IMG/VR virus record: IMGVR_UViG_3300046499_000150 | Span: 1 to 45,274 of that record | DNA length: 45,274 bases | From: a virus | Strand: one strand, 5' to 3' | In this document: one piece after another, positions 3,270 to 39,334 of the stretch | Layout of the letters: each line of letters starts with the position of its first letter | Numbering within the stretch: the stretch's first letter is position 1 | The notes under the pieces: model-generated | The model's database searches: none | Seen by the model: only the letters and a program-made list of their open reading frames with translations | What the model was told of the DNA's origin: nothing | Made by a program: the position numbers and the translations under genes

Positions 3270-3305
3270 AGAAAGGGCCTGTGTGTGACACACAGGCCCT
3301 TTTCT
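3270..3305. terminator. Bidirectional rho-independent terminator built on a TGTGTG/CACACA repeat
   Basis: A perfect 11-bp stem (3275-3285 with 3289-3299) closes on the loop TGA. An A-rich run lies on the left and a T-rich run on the right, so either transcript ends in a hairpin followed by U residues. It sits between the stop codons of the two convergent arms (3267 and 3305). The core 3280-3294 is a copy of the dispersed 15-base repeat, extended by GGGCC/GGCCC. Confidence 0.9.
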
Positions 3306-6353: not shown

Positions 6354-7592
6354 TCATCCTCCACTGATGTATCTCCTCATGGATTTCGTCATTGCCATTC
6401 TATCGCAGATTATGATCACATTATGTCTGGCTCGTGTTATTCCCGTGTATAAGTTCCTCCTGTTTAACATCCTCGGCGCGGCGTTGGTCATACAGTAAAT
6501 CACCGTATCGAACTCCGATCCTTGTGCCTTATGAGTGGTAACGGCATAACCAAGCTCGATCTTCTTGCGGGGGTCATAGTGTATGATGGACCCATGAAAT
6601 GGGCTATACGTCTGTATGAATGGCGGTATGACCATCTGTCGGTCGTCTGTTGAAATCTGTAGAGATCCATCTTCTGAGTTAACCCAATCGATGTATCCAA
6701 GATCCCCATTGAACAGCTTAAGCTGATAGTCGTTCTGGTTCCACAAGAACTTATCTCCGCCTCGTAACGCAATTGGTGGAGGTGCGTCCTTGAGGATTTT
6801 CGCTTTACGGTCCACACGAAGAATGTCCCCGGTTGGATTGAACTTGAGCTGTAAGCTCGGGTTAACTCTGTTAGTGCCGTAGTTCCCATTACGAGTCGGC
6901 ATGATGATCTGAACTCCACGGTGAGTTACCTCCTTAGTGGTGAACGCGATCAATTGCCTAATAGGGTTATCCGTGTAGATAATCTCGAACCGATCATTCC
7001 GCACGGGAAGGCGCCCCACTCTTATCCGCTCGGCATTGAACAAGATTTCATCGTCTGATCTAAAGCACCTTGTGAGCCGCTTGAAAGGTTTAGTTTTCAA
7101 CAAGTCTTCAAACGGTGAGCCTTTGTCCACAGGTGGTAACTGTTCATTGTCACCAAAGAACCTAATCCGGCCATTTGCCGGTAACGCCGCCATGAGTTGC
7201 TCATATAGCTGCTGAGACACCATTGAACTCTCGTCAACATACACGACCCTCTCGTTAAGCGGGCGTTGCCTATTACGTTTGGGATCAGGTGATATTGGCT
7301 TACCCTTCCCATCACTCTCGTCAGGCTGTGGGAACTCCAAGAGTTTGTGTATCGTCTTAGCCTGTATCCCTGTTAGCTCTTGTATCCTCTTCGCTGCACG
7401 TCCAGTAGGCGCGCACAGCACAACTCGCCCACGCCCAACTTGAGTAACAGTCTCTTCGTAGGCAATCCCCAACACACTCGTCTTGCCTGTACCCGCTCGT
7501 CCCGTGACAGAGAATATCCTGTTGAGGCTATCGAGGCACATCTCAATAGCCTGCTCTTGCTCGGTTGATAGGCTAATCTCTTGTCTTTTCAT
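6354..7592 (-). CDS. RecD-like superfamily 1 DNA helicase
   Basis: A 412-residue ATP-dependent helicase. Motif I is TGRAGTGKTS near residue 30, motif Ia CAPTGRAAKR near 60, motif II VYVDESSM near 117, motif III FGDNEQLPPV near 145, a C-terminal GYAVTTHKAQGSEFD near 348, and motif VI LYTGITRAR near 380. These are the RecD/RecD2 signatures. It lacks the N-terminal extensions of full RecD2, as phage Dda-like helicases do. It is co-transcribed with the polymerase and recombination genes and overlaps the gene before it by 20 bases. Likely role: strand opening during phage DNA replication or recombination. Confidence 0.93.
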   Translation of the reverse strand: MKRQEISLSTEQEQAIEMCLDSLNRIFSVTGRAGTGKTSVLGIAYEETVTQVGRGRVVLCAPTGRAAKRIQELTGIQAKTIHKLLEFPQPDESDGKGKPISPDPKRNRQRPLNERVVYVDESSMVSQQLYEQLMAALPANGRIRFFGDNEQLPPVDKGSPFEDLLKTKPFKRLTRCFRSDDEILFNAERIRVGRLPVRNDRFEIIYTDNPIRQLIAFTTKEVTHRGVQIIMPTRNGNYGTNRVNPSLQLKFNPTGDILRVDRKAKILKDAPPPIALRGGDKFLWNQNDYQLKLFNGDLGYIDWVNSEDGSLQISTDDRQMVIPPFIQTYSPFHGSIIHYDPRKKIELGYAVTTHKAQGSEFDTVIYCMTNAAPRMLNRRNLYTGITRARHNVIIICDRMAMTKSMRRYISGG

Positions 7593-7851
7593 CGATCAGT
7601 ACCTCCCCTCTGGACAAGTCAACGTTGTCGTTCTGCACGTACTGAGCCTTGACGCCTAGTTCATTGAGTATCCGCTCCGCGCCCTTAACTAGCAGCACTC
7701 TCATCAACACAGCTTTTGATAAACCCAAACTCTGTGCTGCTAGATCGAAGTTGTACTTGTCTTGTCCTGTTAGCCTTACAACCGTCGGGACCATCCCACT
7801 ATCGGGGTGGGGCGGTGCCAGCGAGATTGTTATCAGGTTAACATCGGGCAT
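7573..7851 (-). CDS. Hypothetical protein with ribbon-helix-helix-like segment
   Basis: A 92-residue protein starting MPDVNLITI at 7851, with GGAG eight bases upstream. The middle (about residues 27-62) reads as a beta strand (VPTVVRL) followed by two helices around an SLGLSKAVLMRVLL turn. This resembles the MetJ/Arc ribbon-helix-helix DNA-binding fold, though I cannot confirm the family. Such proteins bind short palindromes, so it is one candidate for recognising the dispersed repeat. The gene before it ends at 7913, and between them stands a 13-bp hairpin built on a repeat copy. Confidence 0.7.
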   Translation of the reverse strand: MPDVNLITISLAPPHPDSGMVPTVVRLTGQDKYNFDLAAQSLGLSKAVLMRVLLVKGAERILNELGVKAQYVQNDNVDLSRGEVLIDEKTRD

Positions 7852-7875: not shown

Positions 7876-7904
7876 GGGAGGTTGTGTGAGACACACAACC
7901 TCCC
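7876..7904. repeat. Extended copy of the dispersed repeat: 13-bp stem, 3-base loop
   Basis: GGGAGGTTGTGTG (7876-7888) is perfectly complementary to 7892-7904 around the loop AGA. It fills the gap between the DUF669-like gene and the 92-residue gene. No U-run follows on either strand, so it is not a classical terminator; it could be an RNA-processing or stability element or a protein-binding site. Confidence 0.8.
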
Positions 7905-7912
7905 TTCCTCAC

Positions 7913-8425
7913 TTAGCGCCGACGGCCACGAGCGGCAGTCGCTTTCGGAACTTCCGCCTTTGCCTCTTGCTCTTCCTCACGGGCCGGAGCCTCTTCAGCC
8001 GCGAAGAGGGACTTAACCGCGCTCCGCAGTTCGCCTTCGAGGTTCTTCTCCATACCCACGACCAAACCAATGGACTGGTTCATCCACTCGTTCGGGTTAA
8101 TCTCGTTCGTGTTGGAGTCCAGGCCGATCTTCTCAACGAACTGCCTGAGGTTCCACAGCGAACGGCGATCACCCGGCTTCGGAACGAGAAGCCGATTGTA
8201 GAAGAACAGAGCACCATCCTCGTAGTGCTCGGCGACTTCCGCCGGGATATTCTCGGCCGGAACGAGAATGCGAATAGCAAAGTACTCATTCCCAGCCCCG
8301 GAAGTCTTCTGCTCCACGGACTGGATCTCCCCGACGTAACGACCAACCGGGATTTCCGGCGGACGCTCAACGTCGGAGAGGTTCGTGTCGAGAGTGATAA
8401 TACCAACCTCTTCATGTTCAGCCAT
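7913..8425 (-). CDS. DUF669-like protein, probable single-strand DNA-binding partner of the recombinase
   Basis: A 170-residue protein starting MAEHEEVGII. The ATG at 8425 follows AGGAAA at a good distance. The N-terminal two thirds (IPVGRYVGEIQSVEQK, then EYFAIRILVP) resemble the DUF669 proteins that often sit beside Sak4-type ATPases in phages and are thought to have an SSB-like OB fold. The C-terminus ends in an acidic-then-basic tail (TAARGRRR), unlike the acidic tip of bacterial SSB. Its neighbours are a Sak4-like ATPase, a Cas4-like nuclease and the polymerase, which fits a role in binding single strands during replication and recombination. Confidence 0.7.
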   Translation of the reverse strand: MAEHEEVGIITLDTNLSDVERPPEIPVGRYVGEIQSVEQKTSGAGNEYFAIRILVPAENIPAEVAEHYEDGALFFYNRLLVPKPGDRRSLWNLRQFVEKIGLDSNTNEINPNEWMNQSIGLVVGMEKNLEGELRSAVKSLFAAEEAPAREEEQEAKAEVPKATAARGRRR

Positions 8426-8775: not shown

Positions 8776-8811
8776 TGTGTGTCACACACGAAGGAACGCT
8801 CTTGCGTTCCT
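8776..8811 (-). repeat. Two-hairpin gene junction: stop hairpin followed by dispersed repeat
   Basis: A hairpin with arms AGGAACGC/GCGTTCCT (8792-8799 and 8804-8811, loop TCTT) overlaps the stop codon of the Sak4-like gene. Immediately after it in the leftward direction comes a repeat copy (8776-8790), then the AGGAG of the next gene. The same order (hairpin at stop, repeat, ribosome site) recurs in the rightward arm at 28112, 29285 and 38265, and the hairpin arms at 38265 are nearly the same sequence. Confidence 0.75.
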
Positions 8812-10725: not shown

Positions 10726-11050
10726 CTTTGTCTCCGCTGGCAATGTTTTCTCTATCGCCCTCAGTTCGTAGAAGTGTTGGCTCGCCGAGGAAACCGACGG
10801 CTGACTCGAAGTCTGGGGTGAGGTTGGGACCGTCGTGGGTTTGCTTGGACTGACAGGCTTCGTCCGCATTGTAGTACCCCTTTATCTGCTGGTGCCAAGT
10901 ATTGAGCACCTGTATGAAGTTCTCAAAGTTCAGTTCGTGTGTCTCACACAAGCGTTCGAGAGATTTCGTGAACTCGTACCGTGTACATTCTGGCTCGTGT
11001 TCGAAGAATGTGCCATCGGCTGCCAGATATCCATTAACTTGCTTTGGCAC
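10682..11050 (-). CDS. Hypothetical protein; start GTG
   Basis: A 122-residue protein beginning PKQVNGYLAADGTFFE. The GTG at 11050 follows a strong AGGAGG at seven bases. The N-terminal half is a plausible folded domain; the last 50 residues are charged and overlap the upstream extension of the nuclease frame. A dispersed-repeat copy at 10936-10950 is read as LCETH in a helix (SLERLCETHELNFENF), so the repeat has been fitted into protein here. It overlaps the next gene by 44 bases and the previous one by 17. Confidence 0.7.
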   Translation of the reverse strand: MPKQVNGYLAADGTFFEHEPECTRYEFTKSLERLCETHELNFENFIQVLNTWHQQIKGYYNADEACQSKQTHDGPNLTPDFESAVGFLGEPTLLRTEGDRENIASGDKDAPGFLEQQIRRNI

Positions 11051-11363
11051 TGGCTCCCTCCTTGACTACAAATAACAACGGTCCCGCTATCAGCATCCGG
11101 TCAGGCTCGCCCTTTGGACATGACTTCAACCACAATGCCGACGCAATAGGATTGAATGCCATTCCCTTGATCTTCCCCTCTTCATTACAGTACGCAATCC
11201 CCCGTTTGTACTTCTTGCCATCTAGTTCCATCGAAGTGAAATATGGACAGACTTGAAACATCCCATCAACATATCCTTGTATCTCCTTCCACCCTGGGTG
11301 TTTCTTGTGTGTCTCACACACGATCTTGCCATCAGGTGCGATAGTGATGATCTTAAACGGCAT
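11034..11363 (-). CDS. DUF3846-like phage protein
   Basis: A 109-residue protein starting MPFKIITIAPDGKI, with AGGA upstream. The pattern of a short beta strand, IQGYVDGMFQVCPYF, a DGKKYKRGIAYCNEEGKIKG block, FNPIASALW, and a final hydrophobic strand (MLIAGPLLFVV) matches the DUF3846 family, found widely in phages and plasmids without an assigned function. A dispersed-repeat copy (11306-11320) encodes VCETH near residue 18. It overlaps the following gene by 17 bases. Confidence 0.8.
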   Translation of the reverse strand: MPFKIITIAPDGKIVCETHKKHPGWKEIQGYVDGMFQVCPYFTSMELDGKKYKRGIAYCNEEGKIKGMAFNPIASALWLKSCPKGEPDRMLIAGPLLFVVKEGASAKAS

Positions 11364-12729: not shown

Positions 12730-12909
12730 CTACTCTCCTGTTTTGTGTGTCTCACACACGATAAACATGAAACTACTTGCATCCGGTGCGTGTGTAACAA
12801 TCTGAGCCACAACCTTCTTCAGATTGTACAAACTCTCCGGGTTGCACTCAATCTCCTTTTCCGCTCCGTCGGGATAGTTCACTGTCACCTTCACGTTGTA
12901 CTTGCTCAT
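12730..12909 (-). CDS. Small hypothetical protein whose C-terminus is encoded by the dispersed repeat
   Basis: A 59-residue protein starting MSKYNVKVTVNYPDG (an ATG six bases earlier is also possible). It reads as a compact alpha/beta protein with two strands, a helix (LYNLKKVVAQIV) and a strand. The last ten codons are the repeat copy 12744-12758 plus the ribosome site of the next gene, giving the tail VCETHKTGE. Its 5' end overlaps the frame 12848-13162 by about 60 bases. Confidence is moderate because of that overlap. Confidence 0.6.
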   Translation of the reverse strand: MSKYNVKVTVNYPDGAEKEIECNPESLYNLKKVVAQIVTHAPDASSFMFIVCETHKTGE

Positions 12910-13274: not shown

Positions 13275-13480
13275 CACTCCTTGTTTGTGTGTCTCACACA
13301 GAGAACTTCGATAGTTTTCTCGTACTCAAACAACTCGGCCTCAGGGTTAATTTTCTGGGTAAGCCTACCGCTAACAACGTCCCAACACGCTAGCCTGAGT
13401 GGAACAACACAACCATAGCTTCTATTCCACTGCCTCTCCATCAAGCTACGTAGCTTCCTTGGGTTTGGATAAGAGTACAT
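13274..13480 (-). CDS. Small hypothetical protein ending in repeat-encoded residues
   Basis: A 68-residue protein starting MYSYPNPRKLRSLMER. The ATG at 13480 has GGGAG at a good distance and overlaps the previous gene by 35 bases; an alternative ATG at 13441 would remove the overlap but has no clear ribosome site. It ends VLCVRHTNKE, where CVRHT is the dispersed-repeat copy 13286-13300 and NKE precedes the next gene's AGGAG. A 14-bp perfect palindrome (AAGCTACGTAGCTT) lies at the boundary with the gene before it. Function unknown. Confidence 0.6.
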   Translation of the reverse strand: MYSYPNPRKLRSLMERQWNRSYGCVVPLRLACWDVVSGRLTQKINPEAELFEYEKTIEVLCVRHTNKE

Positions 13481-14250: not shown

Positions 14251-14498
14251 TCTGCTTCCTTGTGTGTCACAAACGGAACCAAGTCTCGGTTCAGTCCCTT
14301 CTCTCTGGTCCACTCACACACAGTACAATCACCACCATCCGTGATAATCACACGTTTAGTGATGCCAAACCGCACTGCTACATTGTTGGTATAGTGCTGA
14401 AACGCCTTCACGGCCTCTTCAGCCGACACGAAGTGTCTCACCCGCTCTTGGATGTCACCATCCAGCCACTGGTACACAGAAAATTCATCGACGCTCAT
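14247..14498 (-). CDS. Hypothetical protein, first gene after the leftward promoter
   Basis: An 83-residue protein starting MSVDEFSVYQWLDGD. The ATG at 14498 has the repeat-plus-AAAACAGGAG leader. It contains AEEAVKAFQHYTNNVAVRFG, a strand pair with two cysteines (CTVC), and ends FVTHKEAE, encoded by a degenerate repeat copy (14261-14275) plus the next ribosome site. It is the first gene downstream of the 14572-14600 promoter, so it should be among the earliest made. Function unknown. Confidence 0.75.
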   Translation of the reverse strand: MSVDEFSVYQWLDGDIQERVRHFVSAEEAVKAFQHYTNNVAVRFGITKRVIITDGGDCTVCEWTREKGLNRDLVPFVTHKEAE

Positions 14499-14571
14499 TG
14501 TGATTGCTCCTGTTTTGTGTGTCTCACACGGAAGTTCAGGTCCGTGGTCGCAAAGTTCTGGTGTATGCATT

Positions 14572-14854: not shown

Positions 14855-14881
14855 GGGGCTTGTGTGTCTCACACAAGCCCC
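14855..14881. repeat. Extended copy of the dispersed repeat: 12-bp stem
   Basis: Arms GGGGCTTGTGTG (14855-14866) and the matching 14870-14881 around the loop TCT form a perfect 12-bp stem just after the stop of the 14892-15836 gene. The U-rich terminator follows separately about 60 bases on, so this hairpin has some other role, such as protecting or processing the transcript end. Confidence 0.8.
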
Positions 14882-15883: not shown

Positions 15884-15920
15884 TATGCATCCTCGCACGT
15901 TTGTGTGTCACACACAAGCG

Positions 15921-16166: not shown

Positions 16167-16184
16167 GCATTTATTCCTGTTTTG

Positions 16185-16202
16185 TGTGGCATTTGTGCCA
16201 CA
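16185..16202. repeat. Inverted repeat related to the iteron family
   Basis: TGTGGCA and TGCCACA around TTTG. It resembles the reverse complement of the iterons at 16394-16452 (GTTGC--AAATGTCACA pattern) and takes the place of the dispersed repeat in the leader of the 81-residue gene. Confidence 0.6.
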
Positions 16203-16339
16203 AGACAACGATCATAGGCTCATTTTCCTTCCTGTGTCAAGTGTTTTCTTTTGTGTGTGTCACACAAAACCATTTTCCTCCCTGTTTTCGACGCAACGAG
16301 ATCAAAGGTCCGAAAACATGGGCGATTTTGGGCGCAAAT

Positions 16340-16359
16340 CTGTGACATTTTTGTCACAG
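16340..16359. repeat. Palindrome CTGTGACA/TGTCACAG
   Basis: Perfect 8-base arms around four T residues. It is the leftmost element of the 16.34-16.59 kb cluster of palindromes and iterons and is probably a protein-binding site. The spacing (TGTGA-N8-TCACA) does not fit the CRP consensus, which has six central bases. Confidence 0.6.
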
Positions 16360-16393
16360 TGGCATAAATATCACGCTGTTTTCGGGTCACAGT

Positions 16394-16452
16394 GTTGCAA
16401 AAATGTCACACTCGAAGCGTTGCAGAAATGTCACTGTTGCCGAAATGTCACA
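16394..16452 (+). repeat. Three tandem iteron-like repeats
   Basis: Three 17-base units with the pattern GTTGC(A/C)(A/G)AAATGTCAC(A/T) start at 16394, 16419 and 16436. Two more exact-pattern copies lie in opposite orientation at 19083-19099 and 19225-19241, and looser ones at 16482-16498 and 16571-16587. Direct repeats of this size beside palindromes and an AT-rich tract are typical of initiator-binding sites at replication origins; here that is inference. Confidence 0.7.
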
Positions 16453-16510
16453 CTCCGGTGGTGTGACCCGACTGCAACAGGTGTGGCATTTGCGCCACTG
16501 TGGTATTTTC

Positions 16511-16536
16511 GCACCGTGGCTTTTGGGCCACGGTGC
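16511..16536. repeat. Hairpin GCACCGTGGC/GCCACGGTGC
   Basis: Perfect 10-bp arms with a six-base loop TTTTGG, inside the iteron cluster and outside any gene. No U-run follows on either strand, so it is not an obvious terminator. Confidence 0.65.
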
Positions 16537-16547
16537 GTGTCGTGGAG

Positions 16548-16575
16548 GCAACAGTGACAAATTTGTCACTGTTGC
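16548..16575. repeat. 28-bp perfect palindrome
   Basis: The half-site is GCAACAGTGACAAA followed at once by its exact reverse complement, with no spacer. Each half resembles an inverted iteron. A perfect 28-bp palindrome is very unlikely by chance and marks a strong dimer-binding site, a cruciform or an origin element. It ends eight bases before the stop of the secreted-protein gene at 16583. Confidence 0.8.
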
Positions 16576-16582
16576 TGATTTG

Positions 16583-16864
16583 TCACTGTGGCTGATTGAT
16601 CAACGTGTTCAATTCCGCCCCAATGCCAGTGTTTCGAAAGTGCCCGGCCTTCGTCACAGAGGGCCAGACCCCAGTCTTGCACGCGGTTTGCAACTTGGCG
16701 GAGAGTACCGCCTTGCTAGCGCAAACCGCCTTAGCGGAGGCCTCAAGGTCAGGAAAGTCACTGATTTCATACACAGTGACAGTGCGTGTCACTTCCTGCT
16801 TCGCAAAGCCTGAACCAGTCAGAAGCAGGAGGGCGATTGCAGTCAACTTCACAAGCTTGAACAT
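16583..16864 (-). CDS. Secreted or periplasmic small protein with signal peptide
   Basis: A 93-residue protein starting MFKLVKLTAIALLLLTGSGF, a classical signal peptide (two lysines, a leucine-rich core, an Ala-x-Ala-like GFA end at about residue 21). The mature part has two cysteines (AVCASKA and TACKTG) that could form a disulfide, and a WPSVTKAGHF segment. The ATG follows AAAACAGGA and a degenerate repeat copy (16882-16896). Exported early phage proteins often block superinfection or assist lysis; which of these applies cannot be told. Confidence 0.8.
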   Translation of the reverse strand: MFKLVKLTAIALLLLTGSGFAKQEVTRTVTVYEISDFPDLEASAKAVCASKAVLSAKLQTACKTGVWPSVTKAGHFRNTGIGAELNTLINQPQ

Positions 16865-16921
16865 GGTTTTTAGTCCTGTTTTGAGTGTCACACACAGGAA
16901 CCATTTCCTATGTGTGTCTTG

Positions 16922-17459: not shown

Positions 17460-17486
17460 GCTAGGTTTTCCTTCCTGTGTGAGACA

Positions 17487-17516
17487 CACAAGGGGAGCAA
17501 AGCAAGACAAGTGCCG
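17487..17516 (-). repeat. 30-bp inverted repeat, right copy
   Basis: Reverse-complement partner of 16922-16951 (28 of 30 matches). It lies just upstream of the first cassette gene, so it would be in the 5' leader of that transcript while the left copy is downstream of its end. The RNA between them could fold back into a long stem. Confidence 0.8.
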
Positions 17517-18519
17517 ATTATGGGGTTCTCGTATTCCCCAAGGGGGTTCGCGTCGCTAGGGCTCTCCAGCCCATCATTGCCTTGCGCGAACCGCTTTCAA
17601 AGAACTCTAGCGGGGACCAGTCGCACCTCAAGAGTGGCCACGGAGGGCCGGGGAGGGCTTGGAACTCAGTCGCTAGCAACACGATCAACCTAGCACCTCC
17701 CCAGCGCGTGTCAAGCGGCAATTTGTCGCACCCCAATCCTAGGCTAATTTGCCTAAAAACCCCCCTGCGACAATATGTCACACCCTTTATGCTCACATTC
17801 GCGTGATTATGCATTTTTGTGTATTGACACGTTTCCTGGGGTTTTAAGGCCCGTGGGCGCGTTTTGCGCTTCCCGTGGATGATTGCACCTAGAATGGAAA
17901 ATAACGCGCCGCCGGGCATTTCTGTGGGTCGTGTTAAGTCGTTGATTTTGCTCAGGAATTTCTGTCAAATCACAAGTTCGTGAGCGCCGTTTAGGCGCGG
18001 GTCAAAATTCCTGTCAAGGCCTAATCCGGCAATTCACAACTTTTTACGTGCGGCATTTTGTCACATCTTGTGTGCGACACACAGGTATTGATTCCTACAG
18101 GTCGCGGACGCAAATCCTAGGACTGATCTCCGCCATGTGTGGGATTTCCGTCCTACGAATATATGCATTCTGTCCTAGGATTAAAATCCGCAATATCGCG
18201 ATTTCATGATTTCGTGATATCACGATTTCACAAGGATCAAAATCCTAATTTTACCGTGTTAACAGAGTTAGGAAAACAAACCCCCTCTAACCCATTGAAA
18301 TCATTGAGCTTTTAGCCGCGTAGGACGATAGTCCTACCCCCCGTACCCCGGCCCATTTCCAAAGTCCGGGGAAAGCGATCCTAGGACTAAATTCCGGGCG
18401 AACGAAGTGAGGTCACACGTGGGCGTAAACGCCAAAACATAAACAACGACTTGTGTGTGCGCGAGCGCGCTTGTGTGTCTCACACGATAAATTATTGTGC
18501 ATAATTGAAAAAATAGTGC
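17517..18519. other. Long non-coding regulatory region between the two transcription arms
   Basis: About 1 kb without a convincing gene. It holds repeat copies at 18069-18083 and 18472-18486; four copies of an ATCCTAGG-type palindrome (17735, 18113, 18172 and 18377 regions), two of them continued by A-C-T-(A/G)-A; a hairpin GTAGGAC/GTCCTAC near 18320; two imperfect direct repeats AATT(T/C)CTGTCAA (17958 and 18007); and a short tandem of GATTTC/GATATC units (18200-18230). I could not find a convincing leftward promoter here, although one must feed the genes at 15.9-17.5 kb. Origin and operator functions are plausible. Confidence 0.6.
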
Positions 18520-18659: not shown

Positions 18660-18857
18660 ATGAAAAAATCTGTTGCTGTGAAGCCGCGTGAATATATGAC
18701 GCCTAACGTCGCGGACCTACTCGACAAGTGGAATAGCCGACATCGCGTAGATCGTGAGGTTATGGGAGCGATTGAACTCGCTTACATGCGTGGTGAGAGC
18801 AGCGGGTACATAGAAGGTTTTAAGGATGGAAAGCGGCGGAGTAAACGCCGCGTGTGA
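18660..18857 (+). CDS. Small basic protein, first gene of the rightward arm
   Basis: A 65-residue protein starting MKKSVAVKPREYMTPN; GGAGG lies eight bases upstream. It has a helical centre (VADLLDKWNSRHRVDREVMG) and a very basic tail (KDGKRRSKRRV), so it may bind nucleic acid. It is the only gene directly behind promoter P1. The stop TGA lies inside a dispersed-repeat copy (18851-18865). It is a candidate early regulator, perhaps of the repeats themselves; that is inference from position and charge only. Confidence 0.8.
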   Translation: MKKSVAVKPREYMTPNVADLLDKWNSRHRVDREVMGAIELAYMRGESSGYIEGFKDGKRRSKRRV

Positions 18858-18865
18858 GACACACA

Positions 18866-19082
18866 TGAACAAACTACATATATATGTGATGGGTGTGTAT
18901 CTATGTGTATACTATATATACTATATACTTAATATATATATACATAAATACTATACATATACACTATACATAATATATCTATACATAGTATACTATACTA
19001 TACTATACTTAGTATTATATACATGAAAAACCGCAAAACACGTTCATAATGCAAATCGCGCATTACGGCATGAAAATGCAGG
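18866..19082. other. Extremely AT-rich tract, possible DNA-unwinding element
   Basis: From about 18875 to 19025 the sequence is almost only A and T, built of TATA, ATAC and CTATA units, in sharp contrast to its neighbours. It encodes nothing convincing. Between 16.4 and 19.2 kb it is flanked by iterons facing each other. A duplex this weak is what a replication origin needs for strand opening; it could also carry weak promoters on both strands. Confidence 0.65.
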
Positions 19083-19241
19083 TGTGGCATTTTTGCAACA
19101 CTACAATACGCCCGTCATCAATAACAACAACACAATAATAACCGCATTACAGGCGGCGATGACACCCGCCCATAACACATACCGCCCTATGCGACGGAAC
19201 ATCGGGAGACCGAAGTTATCTGAGTGTGACATTTATGCAAC
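19083..19241 (-). repeat. Two iteron copies in reverse orientation
   Basis: 19083-19099 and 19225-19241 match the reverse complement of the 16394-16452 iterons (TGTG(G/A)CATTTNTGCAAC). They lie just right of the AT-rich tract and about 126 bases apart, with no convincing gene between them. Confidence 0.65.
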
Positions 19242-19310
19242 ACCTCCATACACACAAGTCGAATAGTTGATTTTGACGAAAATCAGATAAAGAACGAAAG
19301 GAGAACAAAC

Positions 19311-19451
19311 GTGGCCGAGGGGGGGCATGAGAAGGATTGGGATGTATACTTTGGGCGGTTTAGATCAGGAGATACGATGTGGGCCACGTGTGTGAAACAC
19401 ACATGGATTAAGAGTGCGGGAGCACTCGGGGGTTCATCGAAGATTGGATGA
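19311..19451 (+). CDS. Small 46-residue protein (possible)
   Basis: A GTG start preceded by AAAGGAG at seven bases opens a short frame beginning AEGGHEKDWDVYFGRFR after the initiator. A dispersed-repeat copy (19389-19403) lies in frame and encodes TCVKHT. It ends in GALGGSSKIG. It lies between promoters P1 and P2. The strong ribosome site is the main support; the length is short and no family is known. Confidence 0.5.
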   Translation: MAEGGHEKDWDVYFGRFRSGDTMWATCVKHTWIKSAGALGGSSKIG

Positions 19452-19557
19452 AGCATCCAGAGTATCACACTTTTTTTAGTTTGTCAAGCGGTATTTTCTC
19501 AATGTTCTGGGTTTGTTCCAACTATTTGACTTGTGTGAAACACACGGAAAATAATCC
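19452..19557. other. Short non-coding stretch before promoter P2
   Basis: It contains a T7 run (19471-19477) some 14 bases after a weak GGATG/CATCC stem (19446-19458), which could end the transcript from P1, and a repeat copy at 19532-19546 that ends 11 bases before the -35 of P2, the classic position for a bound regulator. Confidence 0.45.
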
Positions 19558-19586: not shown

Positions 19587-19665
19587 ATTGTACGTGGGAC
19601 TCACAGATTAGTCATGCACTCTGTGTGTCACACACATGATCGAGCGTCAGGGTTCGATCGTGATC

Positions 19666-20117: not shown

Positions 20118-20148
20118 GGCGTTGTGTGTGACACACAGCGCCTTTTTT
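20118..20148 (+). terminator. Rho-independent terminator made from a dispersed repeat
   Basis: Stem GGCGTTGTGTG/CACACAGCGCC (one T-G pair) with loop TGA, then six T residues (20143-20148). The repeat core is 20123-20137. With the terminator at 3275 this shows that the repeat can serve as a terminator stem. Confidence 0.85.
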
Positions 20149-21429: not shown

Positions 21430-21675
21430 ATGGTTACGGGCAGCTTAGGTGCGAGTCGAGTGCGCGAGAGCTTCAATCCAAGTGGTGATAGCCTGATCGA
21501 TAAGATCAAGCGGCACACAGCGGATTTGATCGATCTTTGCAACGATCAAATGCTGAAAGATACATGCAAAGACACGACTGGCACTAGCGAAATCATTCGT
21601 CTTTACTCGTTAGCGATGACCCACTACGAAGACGCTGCCATGTGGGCAGTGAAGGCAGCGACCACTCCAAAGTAG
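21430..21675 (+). CDS. Acb2/Tad1-like helical hairpin protein (possible anti-CBASS/anti-Thoeris sponge)
   Basis: An 81-residue protein. The pattern FNPSGDSLIDKIKRHTADLI, then a linker, then LYSLAMTHYEDAAMWAVKAAT matches my recollection of the small phage proteins now grouped as Acb2/Tad1 hairpin-domain (DUF7681-type) proteins. Characterised members bind cyclic oligonucleotide or gcADPR signals and so blunt bacterial CBASS or Thoeris defence. The key visible points are the paired helices and the E-AAMWAVKA end. It stands between small unknown genes and the terminase, a frequent place for such proteins. The assignment is from motif memory, not a search. Confidence 0.5.
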   Translation: MVTGSLGASRVRESFNPSGDSLIDKIKRHTADLIDLCNDQMLKDTCKDTTGTSEIIRLYSLAMTHYEDAAMWAVKAATTPK

Positions 21676-21692
21676 TTGTGTGAGACACACAC

Positions 21693-23581: not shown

Positions 23582-23600
23582 CTCTGTGTGAGACACACAA

Positions 23601-25916: not shown

Positions 25917-25942
25917 TTGTGTGAGACACACAGGAGATTAAA

Positions 25943-27115: not shown

Positions 27116-27132
27116 CTTGTGTGAGTCACACA

Positions 27133-27147
27133 GAAACCGGAGGTTTC
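27133..27147 (+). promoter_or_regulatory. Shine-Dalgarno hairpin of the capsid gene
   Basis: Arms GAAACC and GGTTTC around the loop GGA, ending two bases before the ATG at 27149 and directly after a repeat copy (27118-27132). The loop is the core of the ribosome-binding site. Three other late genes have the same design with different arms. Confidence 0.75.
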
Positions 27148-27148
27148 T

Positions 27149-28117
27149 ATGGTTCTCGATACAATTATCCACTCAATGCTTGACAGGTCGCGGGCCAAGT
27201 TGATTATGGCCTCGGCGATCTCTGGCACGGTCAGTGCCTATCTGCACGCCAAAAAGCGTGTGGTCACGGAAGACGGCGGCCCGCAAATCACCAATCCGTT
27301 GATCACGGGACTCAATCCTAATGTTCAGTCGATGCAGTACTACGATACTGTGTCGATTGATCAGACCAACGAGTTCTCGACTGTGGAATACTATATGTCC
27401 CGCGTCGTGGGCTCGCTCATCATCTCCGATCAGGAAGAGGATGAAAATCAGGGCCGTGCTGAGATTTTCAAGATCCTCAAGGGAAAGATCCAGGCCCTCG
27501 ATGAGTCAATCAAACGGAAGTTCGCCCAATATCACACATCGGTTGGTACTGGGTCTGATCCTAATGGCCTCGGCAATATTATTCCTGCTGACCCTACTGT
27601 GGGCTCCGTAGGTGGGATCAACCTGGCCAATGAGTCGCAGTGGAGGAGTTCGAGCTATGATTTCAACGGCACGCTTTCGCCGGAGAACATCGAAGAAGCC
27701 TTTGATGACATCATCGAGCTTGACCTCAACCGATCTACGGATGGGCAATCTTCTCCGCGACCCACGGTTATCTTCGCCGGTCGCAACATCTACCGAATGC
27801 ACAAGGCTGCGGCGCGAGACAAGCAGCAAATTCAGCTCAAGGATTCCGGCACAGGTCGAAAGCTTGTCAACCTCGGGATCAGTGGAACGACCCATAACGG
27901 CGTTCCGCTACTCTTTGATGAAAAACTGGCGTCGAACGATGCCTACTTCATAAATGAGGAGTATCTCACTCTTCACGTTCTGCGTGGAGCGAACATGAAG
28001 ATCAAGAAGCTCTCCTCTCCCTGGAACATGGATGCCACTGGCCGTCGCGTCGTCTGGGAAGGTCAACTCTGTACGTGGAGGCAATACCGCACCCACGCAT
28101 ACCTCACAAACACCTAG
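27149..28117 (+). CDS. Major capsid protein
   Basis: A 322-residue protein starting MVLDTIIHSMLDRSRA. The features fit phage major capsid proteins of the HK97-fold type: YYDTVSIDQTNEFSTVEY near 67-84, a charged EEDENQGRAEIF helix, GGINLANESQWRS near 155, PTVIFAGRNIYR near 210, and a final YFINEEYLTLHV. It follows the scaffold and is the best-equipped late gene for translation (repeat plus Shine-Dalgarno hairpin). Its stop TAG lies in the left arm of a 10-bp hairpin (28112-28134). Confidence 0.88.
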   Translation: MVLDTIIHSMLDRSRAKLIMASAISGTVSAYLHAKKRVVTEDGGPQITNPLITGLNPNVQSMQYYDTVSIDQTNEFSTVEYYMSRVVGSLIISDQEEDENQGRAEIFKILKGKIQALDESIKRKFAQYHTSVGTGSDPNGLGNIIPADPTVGSVGGINLANESQWRSSSYDFNGTLSPENIEEAFDDIIELDLNRSTDGQSSPRPTVIFAGRNIYRMHKAAARDKQQIQLKDSGTGRKLVNLGISGTTHNGVPLLFDEKLASNDAYFINEEYLTLHVLRGANMKIKKLSSPWNMDATGRRVVWEGQLCTWRQYRTHAYLTNT

Positions 28118-28169
28118 TCGCTTTGCGACTAGGTATTGTGTGTAACACACGAAAAATCGGAGATTTTTC
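28112..28169 (+). repeat. Three-hairpin junction: stop hairpin, dispersed repeat, Shine-Dalgarno hairpin
   Basis: In order: ACCTAGTCGC/GCGACTAGGT with loop TTT (28112-28134, containing the capsid stop), the repeat copy with centre TAA (28137-28151), and GAAAAATC/GATTTTTC with loop GGA (28151-28169), which ends against the ATG at 28170. Nearly every base of the junction is paired. Confidence 0.8.
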
Positions 28170-28613: not shown

Positions 28614-29285
28614 ATGCTTCGTGATCGACAAGGCTTCATGCAAGGAGTGAACACGTATGTGCCCGGTATGCAGTTCAGTACTGCTCTTAATGTTGCTGAA
28701 GGTAGCGTGTTCTCTCTGGGCCGACCATTGGCCGCCGGGACGCCGACGACTATCAATATTCCGGCCAATGCGAGCGGGTATCTCTCCGCTCCGCTGGAAC
28801 TTACTGACACCCCGTATGGTAGGAACCTTGTCTTGGCAGTGACTACCGCCCTTACCGGGTCTACTTCCGTCCGTATCTTCGGTGAAGATTACCTCGGCCA
28901 GCCTATGGTCGAGGATATCGTCGTCGCTGGTGGTGCGATGAAGAAAGCGTTCTACCGTATCCTTGGCGCACGCGGTATGCCGGGACACACGACCGCCGTA
29001 GCGGCGGTCACTGTACAGCGTGGGGCAAATCTTGGTTTGCCGTACAAGGGCTCCATCGAATGGGCCAAAGAAGCAAATGTCTTTATCGACCTGGCTTTTG
29101 CGAAGATCGTCGCGGCGGACTTGACCGATCCGGCAACTGCCACTACGGGCGACACTCGTGGGCAGTACATCCCCACGGCGGCGCCAGACGGTGTGAAGGA
29201 GTTCATCATCTGTATGCGAGCCGATGGTGCTGTGAACGCCAACAACAACGGTGGGCTTCACGGGATCAAGCAGTTCAACGCGTAA
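28614..29285 (+). CDS. Probable capsid decoration or minor head protein
   Basis: A 223-residue beta-rich protein starting MLRDRQGFMQGVNTYV. Strand and turn patterns (GTPTTINIPANASGYLSAP, then TALTGSTSVRIFGEDYLGQP) and a lack of charged helices suggest a surface beta-sandwich. GGAG precedes the ATG. It follows the capsid and the 138-residue gene and comes just before the tail adaptor, the place of decoration or minor capsid proteins. The assignment is from context. Confidence 0.65.
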   Translation: MLRDRQGFMQGVNTYVPGMQFSTALNVAEGSVFSLGRPLAAGTPTTINIPANASGYLSAPLELTDTPYGRNLVLAVTTALTGSTSVRIFGEDYLGQPMVEDIVVAGGAMKKAFYRILGARGMPGHTTAVAAVTVQRGANLGLPYKGSIEWAKEANVFIDLAFAKIVAADLTDPATATTGDTRGQYIPTAAPDGVKEFIICMRADGAVNANNNGGLHGIKQFNA

Positions 29286-29337
29286 CGAAATCGCGTCGCG
29301 ATTTCGTGTGTGACACACAAGCGAAACGGAGTTTCGC
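29285..29337 (+). repeat. Three-hairpin junction before the tail adaptor gene
   Basis: ACGAAATCGC/GCGATTTCGT with loop GTC (29285-29307, starting on the last base of the stop TAA), a repeat copy with centre TGA (29305-29319), and GCGAAAC/GTTTCGC with loop GGA (29321-29337) ending against the ATG at 29338. It has the same plan as 28112-28169 with unrelated arm sequences. Confidence 0.8.
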
Positions 29338-30057: not shown

Positions 30058-31917
30058 GTGGTTCACGCTTTTAAGAAGTCTAAGAAGGCCCGCCCGGCCT
30101 CCAAGTTGGACTCGTCCACTTTGAGAGGCTTCGGCGGCGGCTGGAATAGCATCGACGAAGACTTGTCGATGAAGCCGAGTTTTCAAGTAACTCTCATTAA
30201 CTTTCACCGCACGACGAGCGGTGCACAGGCTGTTCGGTTCGGACAGAAGTTTGTGTGTGACATACAAGCTGTACACAATTCTCCAATCCTTGACGGGATT
30301 TATTACAACACATGGAATATCGTTTTTTGTGAAGACGGTTTCATCCTCAAGGTTAGTGAAACTGGTTCTACCATAAGCATCATTTGGTCTGGCTTTCCTG
30401 CTGGGACCGTCGCAGACGGTCCACTGATCAAGCAGGTGAGTTTCGTTCCGTTTAAGGACACGTTGATTATCCATACCGGGCAAACCAAACCTCTTGAGAT
30501 CAAACCCACTATGGTTTGTGACTACCTTGCCGATCCGGTCGGCGGCAATGCTCTCACCCCGATTGGCAAATACGGCTGTGTAGCAGCCAATTATCATTGC
30601 GTTGCGAACATTATCACGACCAAGCTCGAACCGCCAGTGACCGGGGTAATCGTAGTTGACGAGCGAAAACAGACTGAGATTTACATCAGCTCTAAGGGCA
30701 CGTCGGGTGTGTTCCCCGGAGATACCGACCCGAACGACTCCATAGCAATCGATGTAGGGGCGTATGCCCCTGAGGGCGCAGCTGCGATCCGTGGGATCGC
30801 TGGGTTCAGAACGTATCTTCTAGTGTTCTTGCAGAATATCACTCTACAAGTCAAACTTGGGGAGTACGACGATAATGGTGCTCACGTTCCAAGGTTCCCA
30901 GACACTCTACCACAGTTTGGGCTTTTGGGCAATCGGTCCATCGTTACTGTTGAGAACGATATCATGTTCTGCGGCCTCTCGGGCCTAGCTTCAGCTAAGC
31001 GCAATCTGTACGCTCCCGACTCGATCACTTCAGACTTTCTCTCAACTGCCATATCTAATACGTACCGTAAGATTACAGGTGCGCTCTCAAACGATGACCA
31101 ACTAACAAAATCATTTGCCGCGTTCGACAAGCTGAATAACAACTTCATGTTGTTCATGCCGGAAGGCAAAGTGTTGTGTTACACGTTCAATCCACATCTT
31201 AAGATGCGTTCGTGGTCACAGTTCGAGGACATGGATTGGACGGCTGCATGGGCGAGTATTTTGGGGCGTATCTTCCTCACGAAGGGAACAAAGATATTCC
31301 TTGGAGGCAACGGCACGTTTGAGGATGAGAACTTCTACGCCGACCGTATCGGTGATCGGGATTACACATACGCACCTAGCCATTCGTTTGTCGCTGGCGA
31401 TCTGGTATACGATCCTCAAACATTCGAGGTGTGGGCATGTCTAGCGAGTTACCTAGGAACAGCAGTACCCACTTTCGCACAGGAACGTATCAACAACCCG
31501 GACAAATGGACTCTGTACGAAGGACTCGCAATCCAAATCGAGATGGAACTCCCTTGGATCGATGGCAAAGACCCGCTAAAGCTAAAGCAACTCCGCTACG
31601 TAAGCATAGCCACGAAAGGCGACGCTGAGTTCACGTTCGAGGCATATGTGGACAACCTGTATAAGGACGTAGATGGCAATGTCATACATGCACCCTCCGT
31701 ATCGATGGCCTTTATTGGCAATGACGCTTATGGTTACGGCTTCGATGATGGCTACTATGGTATGGGCCGGCGTTCTCGTGACCCTCGGCTTTTTGGGATG
31801 CCCGTGAAATTCAAATCAGTGAAGTTCAAGCTCTGGGGAGCGACTACCAAAAAGCTCGAAGTTATCAATCTGTCGTTCCTGTACGCTCGAAACCGTATAA
31901 GTGGTTACGTTCGATAG
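30058..31917 (+). CDS. Tail nozzle / tubular protein B-like
   Basis: A 619-residue protein with GTG start, beginning VHAFKKSKKARPASKL. It is almost entirely beta-rich, with a repeat-like propeller character (IYYNTWNIVFCEDGFILKV, then IVTVENDIMFCGLSGLASA, then FMLFMPEGKVLCYTFNP) and an RISGYVR end, as in nozzle or stabilisation proteins of short-tailed phages. A one-mismatch copy of the dispersed repeat lies in frame at 30252-30266. The start has no strong ribosome site, so exact N-terminus confidence is moderate. Confidence 0.75.
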   Translation: MVHAFKKSKKARPASKLDSSTLRGFGGGWNSIDEDLSMKPSFQVTLINFHRTTSGAQAVRFGQKFVCDIQAVHNSPILDGIYYNTWNIVFCEDGFILKVSETGSTISIIWSGFPAGTVADGPLIKQVSFVPFKDTLIIHTGQTKPLEIKPTMVCDYLADPVGGNALTPIGKYGCVAANYHCVANIITTKLEPPVTGVIVVDERKQTEIYISSKGTSGVFPGDTDPNDSIAIDVGAYAPEGAAAIRGIAGFRTYLLVFLQNITLQVKLGEYDDNGAHVPRFPDTLPQFGLLGNRSIVTVENDIMFCGLSGLASAKRNLYAPDSITSDFLSTAISNTYRKITGALSNDDQLTKSFAAFDKLNNNFMLFMPEGKVLCYTFNPHLKMRSWSQFEDMDWTAAWASILGRIFLTKGTKIFLGGNGTFEDENFYADRIGDRDYTYAPSHSFVAGDLVYDPQTFEVWACLASYLGTAVPTFAQERINNPDKWTLYEGLAIQIEMELPWIDGKDPLKLKQLRYVSIATKGDAEFTFEAYVDNLYKDVDGNVIHAPSVSMAFIGNDAYGYGFDDGYYGMGRRSRDPRLFGMPVKFKSVKFKLWGATTKKLEVINLSFLYARNRISGYVR

Positions 31918-31918
31918 T

Positions 31919-31951
31919 TGTGTGTCACACACAAGGATGAGCGAAGCTCAT
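31919..31951 (+). repeat. Dispersed repeat followed by a hairpin that includes the start codon
   Basis: The repeat copy (31919-31933) follows the nozzle stop. Then ATGAGC/GCTCAT with loop GAA (31937-31951) has the start ATG of the next gene in its right arm. AAGGA lies between the two. Confidence 0.65.
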
Positions 31952-32978: not shown

Positions 32979-35830
32979 CCACAGAGTACACCAAGAATTT
33001 CAGACTGAACCTCCCTGACTTTAGGATGGGGCCTTGGCATGACCTGACTAATACCAATACGGTTAACATCGATGAACTGTTGCTGAACATTGCTCAGGGA
33101 ACAGACACGACCACTTGGGTAAACGGTACGGCTTACGAAGCTGGCCAAACAGCTATCGACGTAAGTGATTATTCGTTCTGGTTGTGTCGTGTGTCACACA
33201 CAAGCGCACTTGCGCCGACAACGTTTGCCCAAGATCGTGTCGCACATCCTACGTACTGGACTCGGGTTGTTGTCGGAATCAACCCCCGTGGTGCTTGGAC
33301 TCATAGCACGCACTATTTTGTCAATGATCTCGTCACTGATGAGCCCGAAGGGGTCATCGCTCTCTGTATAACTGAACATATTAGCTCGGCGCTGCCGAGC
33401 ACGTTCCGCACGGATGCAGCCTATTGGTCGATCCTTGCTGATCTTCACGCAGCCGTAGGCCCTCCTGGCCCAACAGGTGCCACTGGCGCCAAAGGTGACA
33501 CTGGTTCTCAAGGACCAATAGGCCCTGTAGGACCAATCGGTCCTCAGGGCGTTCCTGGCAACACCGGCCCGCAGGGGACACAAGGCCCGGTTGGGCCACA
33601 GGGTGCTATCGGCCCATCGGGCGGCCCTCCTGGCCCTCAAGGCCCCGCAGGGGCTCCTGGCATTATGGGCCCAGGCACAGCAACGCCTCTCATGGACGGC
33701 ACCGCTTCGGTGGGTGTTTCGCCGTCGCTCGCGGCACGCGAGGATCATCGTCACCCAACCGACACGTCAAAATTGAGCCGGGACGGCTCACTCTCGATGA
33801 CGGGTAATCTAACTTTAGCCTATCCGTCGCCAGCTATAGTTCTTGTAGGAGATTTGACAACTAATTCTCAGATTGTGTCGTACAAAGGCGGGACGCCTCG
33901 CTGGTCCTTATCTCTTGGGGATGGTCAGGCAGAGACTGGCGGCAATGCTGGAAATATATTCAACGTTGCTGCATTCAGTGACACTGGAGGATACCTCTCA
34001 TCACCTTTTGCTATTACGAGAGCCGAAGGCCGTCTTCTCGGCAATGGTGTGGTCCCGGTTGCCACTAATGAACTTGTCAACAAAGCCTATGTGGACGGCA
34101 AGGTCGCCGGCGTGGACTTGTCGAGCAAGGTGAGTAAACTTGGCGACACCATGACGGGGACTTTGAATATTACTGCCGGTGGCTACTTAAACGTTAATGC
34201 AGCGGCGAATGGGTGGGCTACCGTTACTCTAACGACAGGCACGAATGGCCGTTCGTACATAGCCAGTCAAAAGAATGGGAAGACACGCTGGGAAGTCGAT
34301 TTAGGTAACAGCGCACCTGAAACAGGCGGCAACGTCGGGTCGGAATTCTTTATTCATCGCTACGACGACGCCGGAAACTATAATAGTACGCCACTCACCA
34401 TTTTGCGTGGCAGCGGCAATGTTGGCATCAATACGGGGGCTCCGCAGGCCAAGCTGGATGTGAATGGTGGGATCATCGCGTCTCAGGAGCTAATACTGAC
34501 AGGCTCGGAGACGCAACAAATCCGTTTGAGCTGTGGCGGTCAGGACTGGCGCATCGCTTCGCAGGCGACGGCGCAGGGCGGAGCGTTTTACATCTATGAC
34601 ACCACGCATGGTGTGTACCCGTTCGCACTTACTCCTGCGGGCAACTGCGGCATCGGCAACGGCTCGCCAGGGTACAAGTTGGATGTAAACGGTGCAATCA
34701 AGGCGAATAACATCATTGCTAATCTGGATTACTCTTATATCGGAGCCAACCTGCAAACGCGTCCGACAAACGCCTATGCTGTTGGCGCCATTGGCTGGAA
34801 TTACAACACCCAAGAAGTTGGGTTTTGGAATACTTACACTGGTGCAGGCACCAATAGCTTTGTGTTCAGACAACTAACAAGCAATGGGGCGGCACACACC
34901 GATCTGATGTCGATCTCGCAAAGCGGCAACCTATGGGTTGGCGGTACCACTGATGTAGTCGGCAAGATCACCTGTGGCGACTTCAAGTCGAACAACAATG
35001 TCCAGTCAGCAGGCGGTATCTATTACTTTCAGGACGGCAACAAGTATCTGCAATATGGTACTGGCGTTGCGGTGAATGGAGCAGCGGGCTTTTATTTCAG
35101 CGACAATGCTTGGCACAACGGTACGCTCGGTACCCTCACCGGCCTCGTGACTTCCCAATCAACAAACGTAAGCCATGCCGTCTTTTCGATGACGAACGAG
35201 TTTCGCGTGCAGCAGGGCGCGCTGTATTGGGATCGTTCCACCAATGCCGTTAGCCTCGTTAGCAACGTCGCCAGCACTTCCCTGATCATACAACCCAGCG
35301 GCGTCGTCAAGCTCGGCATTGGCTATGCCGGCAGGGCGGGACAAGCTGGCGCCTTCGACGGCAACGCCCACAACTTCTACTGGACGAGCAGTCTGCACGC
35401 CTACATCGACAACGTCGATTTGGGCCCGGTTGCGTTCGCCTGCGACTACCGCATCAAGAAAGATGTCGTCCCGCTCGACAGTACCTGGGACGCCGTGAAG
35501 GCGCTCAAGCCGATCAGCTATACGCAGGCTGAGTTCATGCCGCTTGTCACCAAGGTGGATCGTGTAAAGGAAGCGGCCGATCTAAGAAAAGCTAACCCAA
35601 AATCTGAGTTGCCAAAGTATCCACCTATGTACGCAGCGGACAACATCGAACGTTGGGGATTTATAGCTCACGAGCTACAGGACACGTTAATCCCAATGGC
35701 TGCCACAGGCACTAAAGACAGCCCCAACGAAATACAAGCTCCTAACCCGCTCGTGATCATAGCTGCACTAACACGAGCGTTGCAAGAGGCTATGTCCCGG
35801 ATCGAAGCGCTCGAAGCAAAGATTGTGTGA
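32975..35830 (+). CDS. Collagen-containing tail fibre with C-terminal S74 intramolecular chaperone
   Basis: A 951-residue fibre. It has an N-terminal anchoring module shared with paralogue 1 (1-155), a collagen-like Gly-X-Y region (about 161-230: [13 protein letters not shown] and so on), a [10 protein letters not shown] linker, beta-helix-like repeats, and from about 820 an S74 peptidase domain ([18 protein letters not shown], then [11 protein letters not shown]). S74 domains help trimer folding and then cut themselves off. The usual catalytic Ser of the SD-xR-xK motif is Cys here (CDYRIK). A repeat copy (33188-33202) is in frame, and the stop TGA lies inside another (35824-35838). It is probably the main receptor-binding fibre. 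Confidence 0.88.
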
Positions 35831-35842
35831 GACACACAACTC

Positions 35843-36829: not shown

Positions 36830-37318
36830 ATGACTAAGGACCTCACACATCGAGTTTACGAACCGAAGGACATTCCACGGGTCCTCGATCTAATCATGCT
36901 GGCGTTACCACAATTACCCAACTATGCAATGATCGTACCAGACCGAGATCGGATCGAATATGTTCTCACCCATAACGTCGATAACGCCGAGGCATTTGGC
37001 GGGTGGGTCTTGTGTGACACACACGAAACCGTTTACGGTTTCGGTGGTGCCTGGTGCGTTCGCAGTCTCATGTCTATGGACTTCGTGGCTGATGACATAT
37101 TTATGTGGGTTGAGCCTGAATATCGGACTTACCCAAACGTGCGAAAACTTGTTATCAACTATGTGGACTGGGCACAGGCGCGAGGCGCCAAGCTCATCCG
37201 TGCCTCCCACACGGGAGGAAGTTTCCCTAAAGACAGTCGTGAGGCTATGCTCTACCACACCTTACTCATGAGACTCGGGTTCAAAGAAGTCGGAAGCGTG
37301 TACCACCTGCAAGCGTAG
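36830..37318 (+). CDS. GNAT-like acetyltransferase-fold protein
   Basis: A 162-residue protein starting MTKDLTHRVYEPKDIP. The fold pattern of a beta strand, the helix DIPRVLDLIMLALPQ, FGGWVLCDTHETVYGFGGA, a strand, a helix with VRKLVINYVDWAQARGAK, and MRLGFKEVGSVYHL resembles GNAT proteins often found among podoviral tail and internal genes. The canonical acetyl-CoA loop (R/Q-x-x-G-x-G/A) is not clear, so activity is doubtful. A repeat copy in frame (37011-37025, CDTH) is followed at once by a hairpin GAAACCG/CGGTTTC. Its stop TAG is in a hairpin loop (GCAAGC/GCTTGC). Confidence 0.65.
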   Translation: MTKDLTHRVYEPKDIPRVLDLIMLALPQLPNYAMIVPDRDRIEYVLTHNVDNAEAFGGWVLCDTHETVYGFGGAWCVRSLMSMDFVADDIFMWVEPEYRTYPNVRKLVINYVDWAQARGAKLIRASHTGGSFPKDSREAMLYHTLLMRLGFKEVGSVYHLQA

Positions 37319-38264: not shown

Positions 38265-38315
38265 GGAACGCTCTCGCGTTCCTGTGTGTGACACACAAAA
38301 TCTCGGAGAGATTTT
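38265..38315 (+). repeat. Three-hairpin junction before the 327-residue internal protein
   Basis: GGAACGC/GCGTTCC with loop TCTC (38265-38282), a repeat copy with centre TGA (38283-38297), and AAAATCTC/GAGATTTT with loop GGA (38297-38315) ending against the ATG at 38316. It is the third example of this plan in the late operon. Confidence 0.8.
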
Positions 38316-39299: not shown

Positions 39300-39334
39300 C
39301 TAAGATTGTGTGAGACACACAACGGAGAGGTTCC

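Follow-up and report, generated by a model that had tools for sequence, protein, structure and literature searches.

RESULTS

Gene junctions of the window phage.

The window, by which we mean the whole stretch of DNA analyzed here, is a virus record of 45,274 bp that looks complete and belongs to a tailed phage. At three of its gene junctions on the plus strand, starting at 28112, 29285 and 38265, a hairpin at the stop codon is followed by a dyad, a Shine-Dalgarno (SD) hairpin with a GGA loop and the ATG of the next gene, exactly at the coordinates given by the first-pass annotation. The first junction consists of the 10-bp stop-codon hairpin ACCTAGTCGC TTT GCGACTAGGT (28112 to 28134), the dyad site TGTGTGTAACACACG (28137 to 28151) and the SD hairpin GAAAAATC GGA GATTTTTC (28151 to 28169). 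In the second, the 10-bp stop-codon hairpin ACGAAATCGC GTC GCGATTTCGT (29285 to 29307) precedes the dyad CGTGTGTGACACACA (29305 to 29319) and the SD hairpin GCGAAAC GGA GTTTCGC (29321 to 29337), while the third combines the 7-bp stop-side hairpin GGAACGC TCTC GCGTTCC (38265 to 38282), the dyad TGTGTGTGACACACA (38283 to 38297) and the SD hairpin AAAATCTC GGA GAGATTTT (38297 to 38315). A fourth SD hairpin, AGAAACC GGA GGTTTCT (27132 to 27148, plus strand), lies ahead of the major capsid gene. On the leftward arm, the first two elements are found as claimed at 8811 to 8776 of the minus strand, where the 8-bp stop hairpin AGGAACGC AAGA GCGTTCCT (8792 to 8811, in the sense direction; the loop reads TCTT on the plus strand) stands beside a dyad site (8776 to 8790). 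The stop hairpins at 8792 and 38265 nearly share their GGAACGC arms, as had also been noted. The pattern GAACGC-N3/4-GCGTTC occurs at just these two places in the window and once more in one relative, and the arms were rejected as a second dispersed repeat.

The rest of the genome was surveyed for context. A 127-bp direct terminal repeat (positions 1 to 127 and 45148 to 45274) indicates a circular or terminally redundant genome, and a tRNA search of the window found none. The 1,081-residue protein encoded at 22 to 3267 (plus strand) has no PHROG match and is present in 10 of 10 relatives, diverged (23 to 54%) and longer in several; perhaps it is an ejected virion protein. At the other end, a large protein (43015 to 45273, plus strand) combines phage lysozyme and VanY-type carboxypeptidase domains, and the tail fiber gene carries Gly-Pro-rich, collagen-like coding repeats at 33458 to 33663. 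An 81-residue protein (21430 to 21675, plus strand) matches the Acb2/Tad1 hairpin domain (Pfam PF24729, E value of 2e-10) and, by this match, is likely a sponge protein against cyclic-nucleotide defenses. Near the divergent early region lie two clusters of short repeats, one TGTCACTGTTGC-like (16184 to 16586) and one GTGTGGCATTTNTGCCACA-like (19082 to 19248), which are iteron-like and possibly mark an origin of replication.

In isolates, the counterparts of the capsid and polymerase genes of the window are only distantly similar. We worked with environmental relatives and gathered 80 loci with 82 to 100% capsid identity; ten near-complete relatives together with the window made up the 11 genomes of the network comparison, and all fetched loci together provided about 850 distinct dyad sites. 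Locus L145 represents the window phage assembled a second time and is not independent of it, and L041 is nearly identical to it (98.9% over 7.4 kb). Exact 15-mers of the dyad were also found in other environmental contigs, and an Rfam search gave no match. Mx8, BUCT555 and ppBjS10J-1, the named phages closest in capsid, carry no such network, with at most five copies of any dyad with 5-nt arms.

The dyad forms a genome-wide network of mostly intergenic sites.

The dispersed repeat at the junctions is real and far more abundant than the four copies counted at first. With at most two mismatches, the window holds 40 distinct copies of a 13- to 15-bp site, TGTGTG-NNN-CACACA, and the same threshold gives 139 overlapping matches on both strands, versus 1.2 in shuffled sequences. 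Thirty of the 40 copies are intergenic, while intergenic DNA makes up 10% of the window. Most intergenic gaps of at least 17 nt contain a copy, at a density of about one per 1.1 kb; gaps down to 17 nt are filled by the dyad alone, the distance to a stop or start codon can be as small as 1 nt, and early and late operons are occupied alike.

On the minus strand, intergenic copies lie at 12744 to 12758, 13286 to 13300, 14516 to 14530, 15902 to 15916, 16252 to 16266 and 16882 to 16896, and a copy with two mismatches marks a gene end at 14261 to 14275. The divergent region contains copies without strand assignment at 17476 to 17490, 18069 to 18083 and 18472 to 18486. On the plus strand, the intergenic copies are those at 19389 to 19403, 19532 to 19546, 19622 to 19636, 25918 to 25932, 31919 to 31933, 39307 to 39321 and 42981 to 42995; others sit at a gene end (18851 to 18865), overlap one (35824 to 35838), fill the 17-nt gap 5' of the terminase large subunit gene (21677 to 21691), precede the start of the portal gene by 1 nt (23585 to 23599) or another start codon by the same distance (40930 to 40944), or lie ahead of the major capsid gene (27118 to 27132). 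Copies within coding sequences (CDS) are located at 2028 to 2042, 30252 to 30266, 33188 to 33202, 37011 to 37025 and 44107 to 44121 on the plus strand and at 5223 to 5237, 6151 to 6165, 10936 to 10950 and 11306 to 11320 on the minus strand.

Site positions are conserved while the arms change with lineage.

Each of the ten near-complete relatives has 32 to 43 dyad copies. By comparing orthologous junctions between the window and these ten, we found that where the window has a site the relative has one in 57 of 68 cases and lacks it in 11, whereas at junctions without a site in the window the relative has one in 8 of 68 cases and lacks it in 60; these comparisons come from related genomes and are not independent events. 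The sites at 15902, 16252, 25918, 29305, 31919, 38283, 39307 and 42981 are among them. The copy ahead of the major capsid gene is kept in 10 of 10 relatives, and the site at 28137 has an ortholog in 7 of the 8 relatives with a comparable junction.

The arms fall into lineage types, GTGTG, GTTTG and GTATG, which occupy the same junctions with the arms switched, as in the forms GTGTGAGACACAC and GTTTGAGTCAAAC. Among the 80 capsid loci, many have a site at the capsid junctions but with other arms (GTGTGAGTCACAC, GTTTGAGTCAAAC, GTATGAGTCATAC and GTGTGATTCACAC). About 35 sites have switched arms jointly from one phage lineage to another but stayed in place, which suggests a partner that varies along with the phage. 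This observation bears on the idea that the dyads are recognized by a host regulator, or are short promoters or RNase sites for host enzymes. Such a reading gains from the TGTGA-N-TCACA core of the dyad, which resembles the dyads of bacterial regulators, and from the capsid-based search for a host in GTDB genomes, which returned no match. However, besides the joint switching of arms, the 17-nt gaps filled by the dyad alone offer no space for a promoter, and we consider host recognition improbable.

The dyad behaves as a DNA site that tends to be oriented with transcription.

The GTTTG lineage varies enough for its arms to be examined as DNA or RNA. Positions 3 and 11 form a Watson-Crick pair in 21 of 35, 16 of 30, 13 of 40, 19 of 37 and 20 of 36 copies of five phages of this type, always below the expectation for independent half-sites; U.C and G.A account for most of the mismatches, G-U being almost absent, and mid-stem mismatches affect a quarter to two-thirds of the copies. 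No compensatory pairing was found at this position in the GTTTG-type phages, the exception being the hairpin at 7876 to 7904 described below, and at most sites little pairing extends beyond the dyad core. Because the arms of this lineage do not covary and mid-stem mismatches are common, the dyad, judged by these alignments, is a dimer-type DNA site, with a protein dimer recognizing its two half-sites, and not an RNA hairpin. GTGTG-type arms, the type of the window itself, are too uniform for this comparison, so for the lineage of the window the conclusion is extended from the homologous position and sequence of its sites.

The center of the dyad is asymmetric, and its AGA type lies in the sense strand in a ratio of 20:1 in the window phage, on leftward and rightward arms both. 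Ratios of 18:4, 15:3 and 14:2 were obtained in relatives of the same type, most of which show a similar bias, and in the other types the bias is weaker (120:70, G:C, intergenic copies). Since the center follows the sense strand on both arms, a role linked to transcription rather than to the chromosome is favored. Pure SD mimicry is insufficient as a cause of the orientation, which persists in copies that have an SD of their own downstream.

A few dyads are nested in long hairpins.

Between the gene at 7913 to 8425 and the downstream gene of a predicted ribbon-helix-helix (RHH) protein, the minus strand contains a long hairpin, GGGAGGTT-dyad-AACCTCCC (7876 to 7904), whose 11 to 15 bp enclose the dyad and which is kept in 10 phages despite altered outer arms. 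In L181 and L182, the register of its stem differs from that of the dyad. An RNA role at this junction is well supported by the comparison of these sequences. Elsewhere, copies at convergent gene ends or ahead of U-runs form terminator-like stems. The dyad at 3280 to 3294 lies at the tip of a 14-bp hairpin located where genes converge (3272 to 3302, resembling a bidirectional terminator), and the plus-strand copy at 20123 to 20137 is followed by GCGCCTTTTTT in a terminator-like arrangement; a further copy (14861 to 14875) lies within a 12-bp hairpin on the minus strand (14855 to 14881). A few dyads are thus embedded in long hairpins, of which one is conserved, so that RNA structure has a part at some copies; these were built into hairpins, for which the dyad would offer a ready-made apex.

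The outer hairpins belong to a genome-wide excess.

The stop and SD hairpins occur beyond chance in the window, with 9 stop hairpins versus 0.7 expected and 5 SD-loop hairpins versus 0.3 expected; the relatives have 0 to 4 and 0 to 2, respectively, against similar expectations. Most relatives carry the dyad at the same junctions without the outer hairpins. The stop-codon hairpin at 28112 is restricted to the window phage and the nearly identical L041, and the SD hairpin at 28151 is absent from other relatives. Because L041 has both of the three-part junctions that its contig covers, these junctions are not an assembly error.

Counting all perfect hairpins with stems of 7 bp or more, we found 64 in the window phage versus 8.6 in shuffled sequences, and 40 of the 64 are within genes. 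Against synonymous codon shuffles, CDS hairpins are in excess with loops of 3 nt (15 versus 3.5) and 4 nt (16 versus 4.8), and no excess was seen with loops of 5 to 6 nt; the spacer peak is at 3 and 4 nt only. The excess is confined to fully paired stems. The stop and SD hairpins are part of a phage-specific, genome-wide excess of perfect hairpins with 3- to 4-nt loops. Genome G012 is the same phage as the window and provides no independent genome rich in hairpins. Over the 7.4 kb shared with L041, only two hairpins differ. In a coding hairpin at 24235, a paired change from A-T to G-C plus one more change separates the two phages (1.2% divergence), which is possibly a hairpin-templated or compensatory event.

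As the origin of the excess we prefer hairpin-primed template switching, read from the distribution of loops and stems and not from caught events. Quasipalindrome correction or template switching is known from bacteria and yeast to perfect the arms of inverted repeats, coding DNA included (PMC8604942), and in the window phage it is perhaps indicated by the excess and the loop sizes. The excess fits a physical fold-back with a minimal loop. The outer hairpins might instead be selected structures peculiar to the window phage, serving mRNA stability or SD protection. In this direction point the GGA loop of 4 of 4 junctional SD hairpins, the residues at CDS hairpins, which are as conserved as elsewhere, and the higher density of non-element hairpins between genes than within them, but relaxed intergenic constraint would explain that density equally well. 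Moreover, the loops show no evident GNRA or UUCG preference and stems with G-U pairs are not in excess, which sets these hairpins apart from most RNA structures under selection. We regard selection as the less likely origin, although it keeps some weight beside template switching.

The three pieces do not form one RNA module.

The first-pass annotation had read the junctions as a modular intercistronic element in which three consecutive hairpins set mRNA cleavage, stability and re-initiation of translation gene by gene. Part of this description stands, in that the repeat recurs and the outer hairpins exceed chance, but the three pieces are not one module. Since the stop hairpins of the three junctions do not align with one another, no covariance model of the junctions was built, and a descriptor scan of the roughly 850 sites was used in its place. 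The full order was found at three junctions only, all of the window phage, and it does not recur in related phages. Minimum-energy folds of the three junctions lack three consecutive hairpins; in each of them the dyad is not a hairpin, and its arms pair elsewhere. In addition to the excess of outer hairpins, the RNA reading can draw on the conserved hairpin that encloses the dyad upstream of the RHH gene and on the orientation of the window-phage sites with transcription. Against it stand the restriction of the full order to one phage, the dyad arms of the GTTTG lineage, which do not covary as RNA, and the SD and stop hairpins, which belong to an excess reaching into coding sequence. As a general module it is largely refuted and we give it little chance; the middle dyad and the outer hairpins are two unrelated things that overlap at junctions.

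A conserved small protein is the candidate binder.

The RHH gene (7573 to 7851, minus strand) encodes 92 residues and has a dyad copy upstream of itself, and all relatives with a contig spanning this locus have an ortholog there. The RHH_1 profile gave no sequence match to the protein. Its predicted topology is a strand (residues 23 to 26) followed by two helices (29 to 42 and 46 to 64), and in a Foldseek search with the predicted model RHH proteins came out on top (CopASO, AtaR and PutA; also CopG) with E values above 1 and TM scores to the target of 0.74 to 0.80 for CopG and CopASO. RHH dimers are small and bind short pseudosymmetric dyads. On the basis of this model, the 92-residue protein is the candidate for a dyad binder that would most likely be a phage-encoded dimer. 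The operators of the CopG, AtaR and CopASO type are likewise dyads, and the strand-helix-helix order and predicted fold match those proteins; their operators serve one or few promoters, whereas here 40 sites run through the operons.

In GTTTG-type phages the strand residues of the protein read R-x-R, whereas most phages of the GTGTG type have R-x-T or R-x-S. L188, a GTGTG phage, fits this pattern though its protein is otherwise nearer to the GTTTG clade, and G002 is an exception, with R-L-R and GTGTG sites. The residues and sites thus appear to correlate loosely, a lead rather than proof.

RHH proteins also work in partition systems, and the dyads could in principle serve a genome-organizing protein, for partition, nucleoid-like compaction or packaging, instead of transcription control. 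Their spacing is more even than random in 5 of the 7 genomes tested, and their presence in both early and late operons suits such a function. However, gap placement alone may account for the even spacing, the orientation follows transcription on both arms and not the genome, and a ParA-like gene was not seen among the proteins scanned. We regard this alternative as unlikely, if somewhat better placed than host recognition or the RNA module.

DISCUSSION

The explanation that we favor, and think probable, is a network of dyads bound by a dimeric phage protein, together with a separate mutational excess of hairpins. From what was observed of the dyads, namely how many there are, where they lie, how they are conserved, how their arms vary by lineage and that base pairs do not covary, we infer a dimeric, most likely phage-encoded protein, for which the conserved 92-residue RHH protein is the candidate, that would bind the roughly 40 sites. 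The bound protein would act on RNA polymerase crossing the operons as a stoperator-like roadblock or pause, and the roadblock or pause could damp or time gene expression. Hairpin-primed template switching during replication would separately make the stop and SD hairpins, and any effects on translation or mRNA stability would be secondary.

The best-known repressor sites that are dispersed and act on polymerase during elongation are those of Cluster A mycobacteriophages. In phages such as L5 and Bxb1, 20 to 30 short repressor sites, the stoperators, are dispersed over the genome, mostly off promoters and oriented with transcription, and their consensus drifts by phage group along with the repressor (PMC6550527). 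Of known systems, the dyads come closest to these, in number, dispersion, intercistronic placement and lineage-specific consensus and, to a degree that varies between types, in orientation. However, the stoperator site is asymmetric, whereas the dyad is palindromic with an asymmetric center and numbers 32 to 43 per genome. Cluster A phages are temperate and have an immunity repressor and an integrase or parABS, but no tyrosine or serine integrase was found in our 11 genomes, only three of which gave HTH_3 matches. The repressor binds the stoperators in Cluster A, whereas the candidate binder here is an RHH protein and the block to elongation is suggested by analogy. Because of these differences in asymmetry, repressor and temperate lifestyle, and with no integrase here, the network can be called stoperator-like but not a stoperator system. 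No integrase, resolvase or classical repressor was recognized in the window, so a lysogenic role of the kind played by true stoperators would be without its customary partners.

The layout also recalls the SAS/ESAS elements of Cluster K mycobacteriophages, a short repeat near the start codons of several genes, with the SD between complementary ends. SAS is an asymmetric 13-bp sequence located 3 to 7 nt from start codons in the right half of the genome, and about half of its copies are immediately preceded by inverted repeats (PMC3203893). These elements include the ribosome binding site, whereas the dyad lacks an SD and stands 1 to 19 nt before starts or elsewhere. An asymmetric repeat containing the SD was not found among our elements, and the SD hairpins, alike in layout only, have just the GGA loop in common, belong to one phage and are not shared between phages.

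More broadly, and only tentatively, we may have before us a phage family without a recognized integrase in which a single small RHH protein, acting through about 40 dyads that co-evolve with it, controls nearly every gene boundary; this control would be stoperator-like, assembled from unrelated parts, and would serve lytic timing or superinfection exclusion, with one member of the family having also gained perfect short-loop hairpins in a mutational burst across its genome. The hairpin excess provides a natural example of short-loop inverted repeats that arise throughout a genome, within coding regions too. If the protein-dyad network is borne out, a compact protein-site pair with a short candidate binder would be available, and the presence of a comparable and strongly conserved network in an unrelated family of environmental phages would mean that whole-genome damping of transcripts has evolved more than once.
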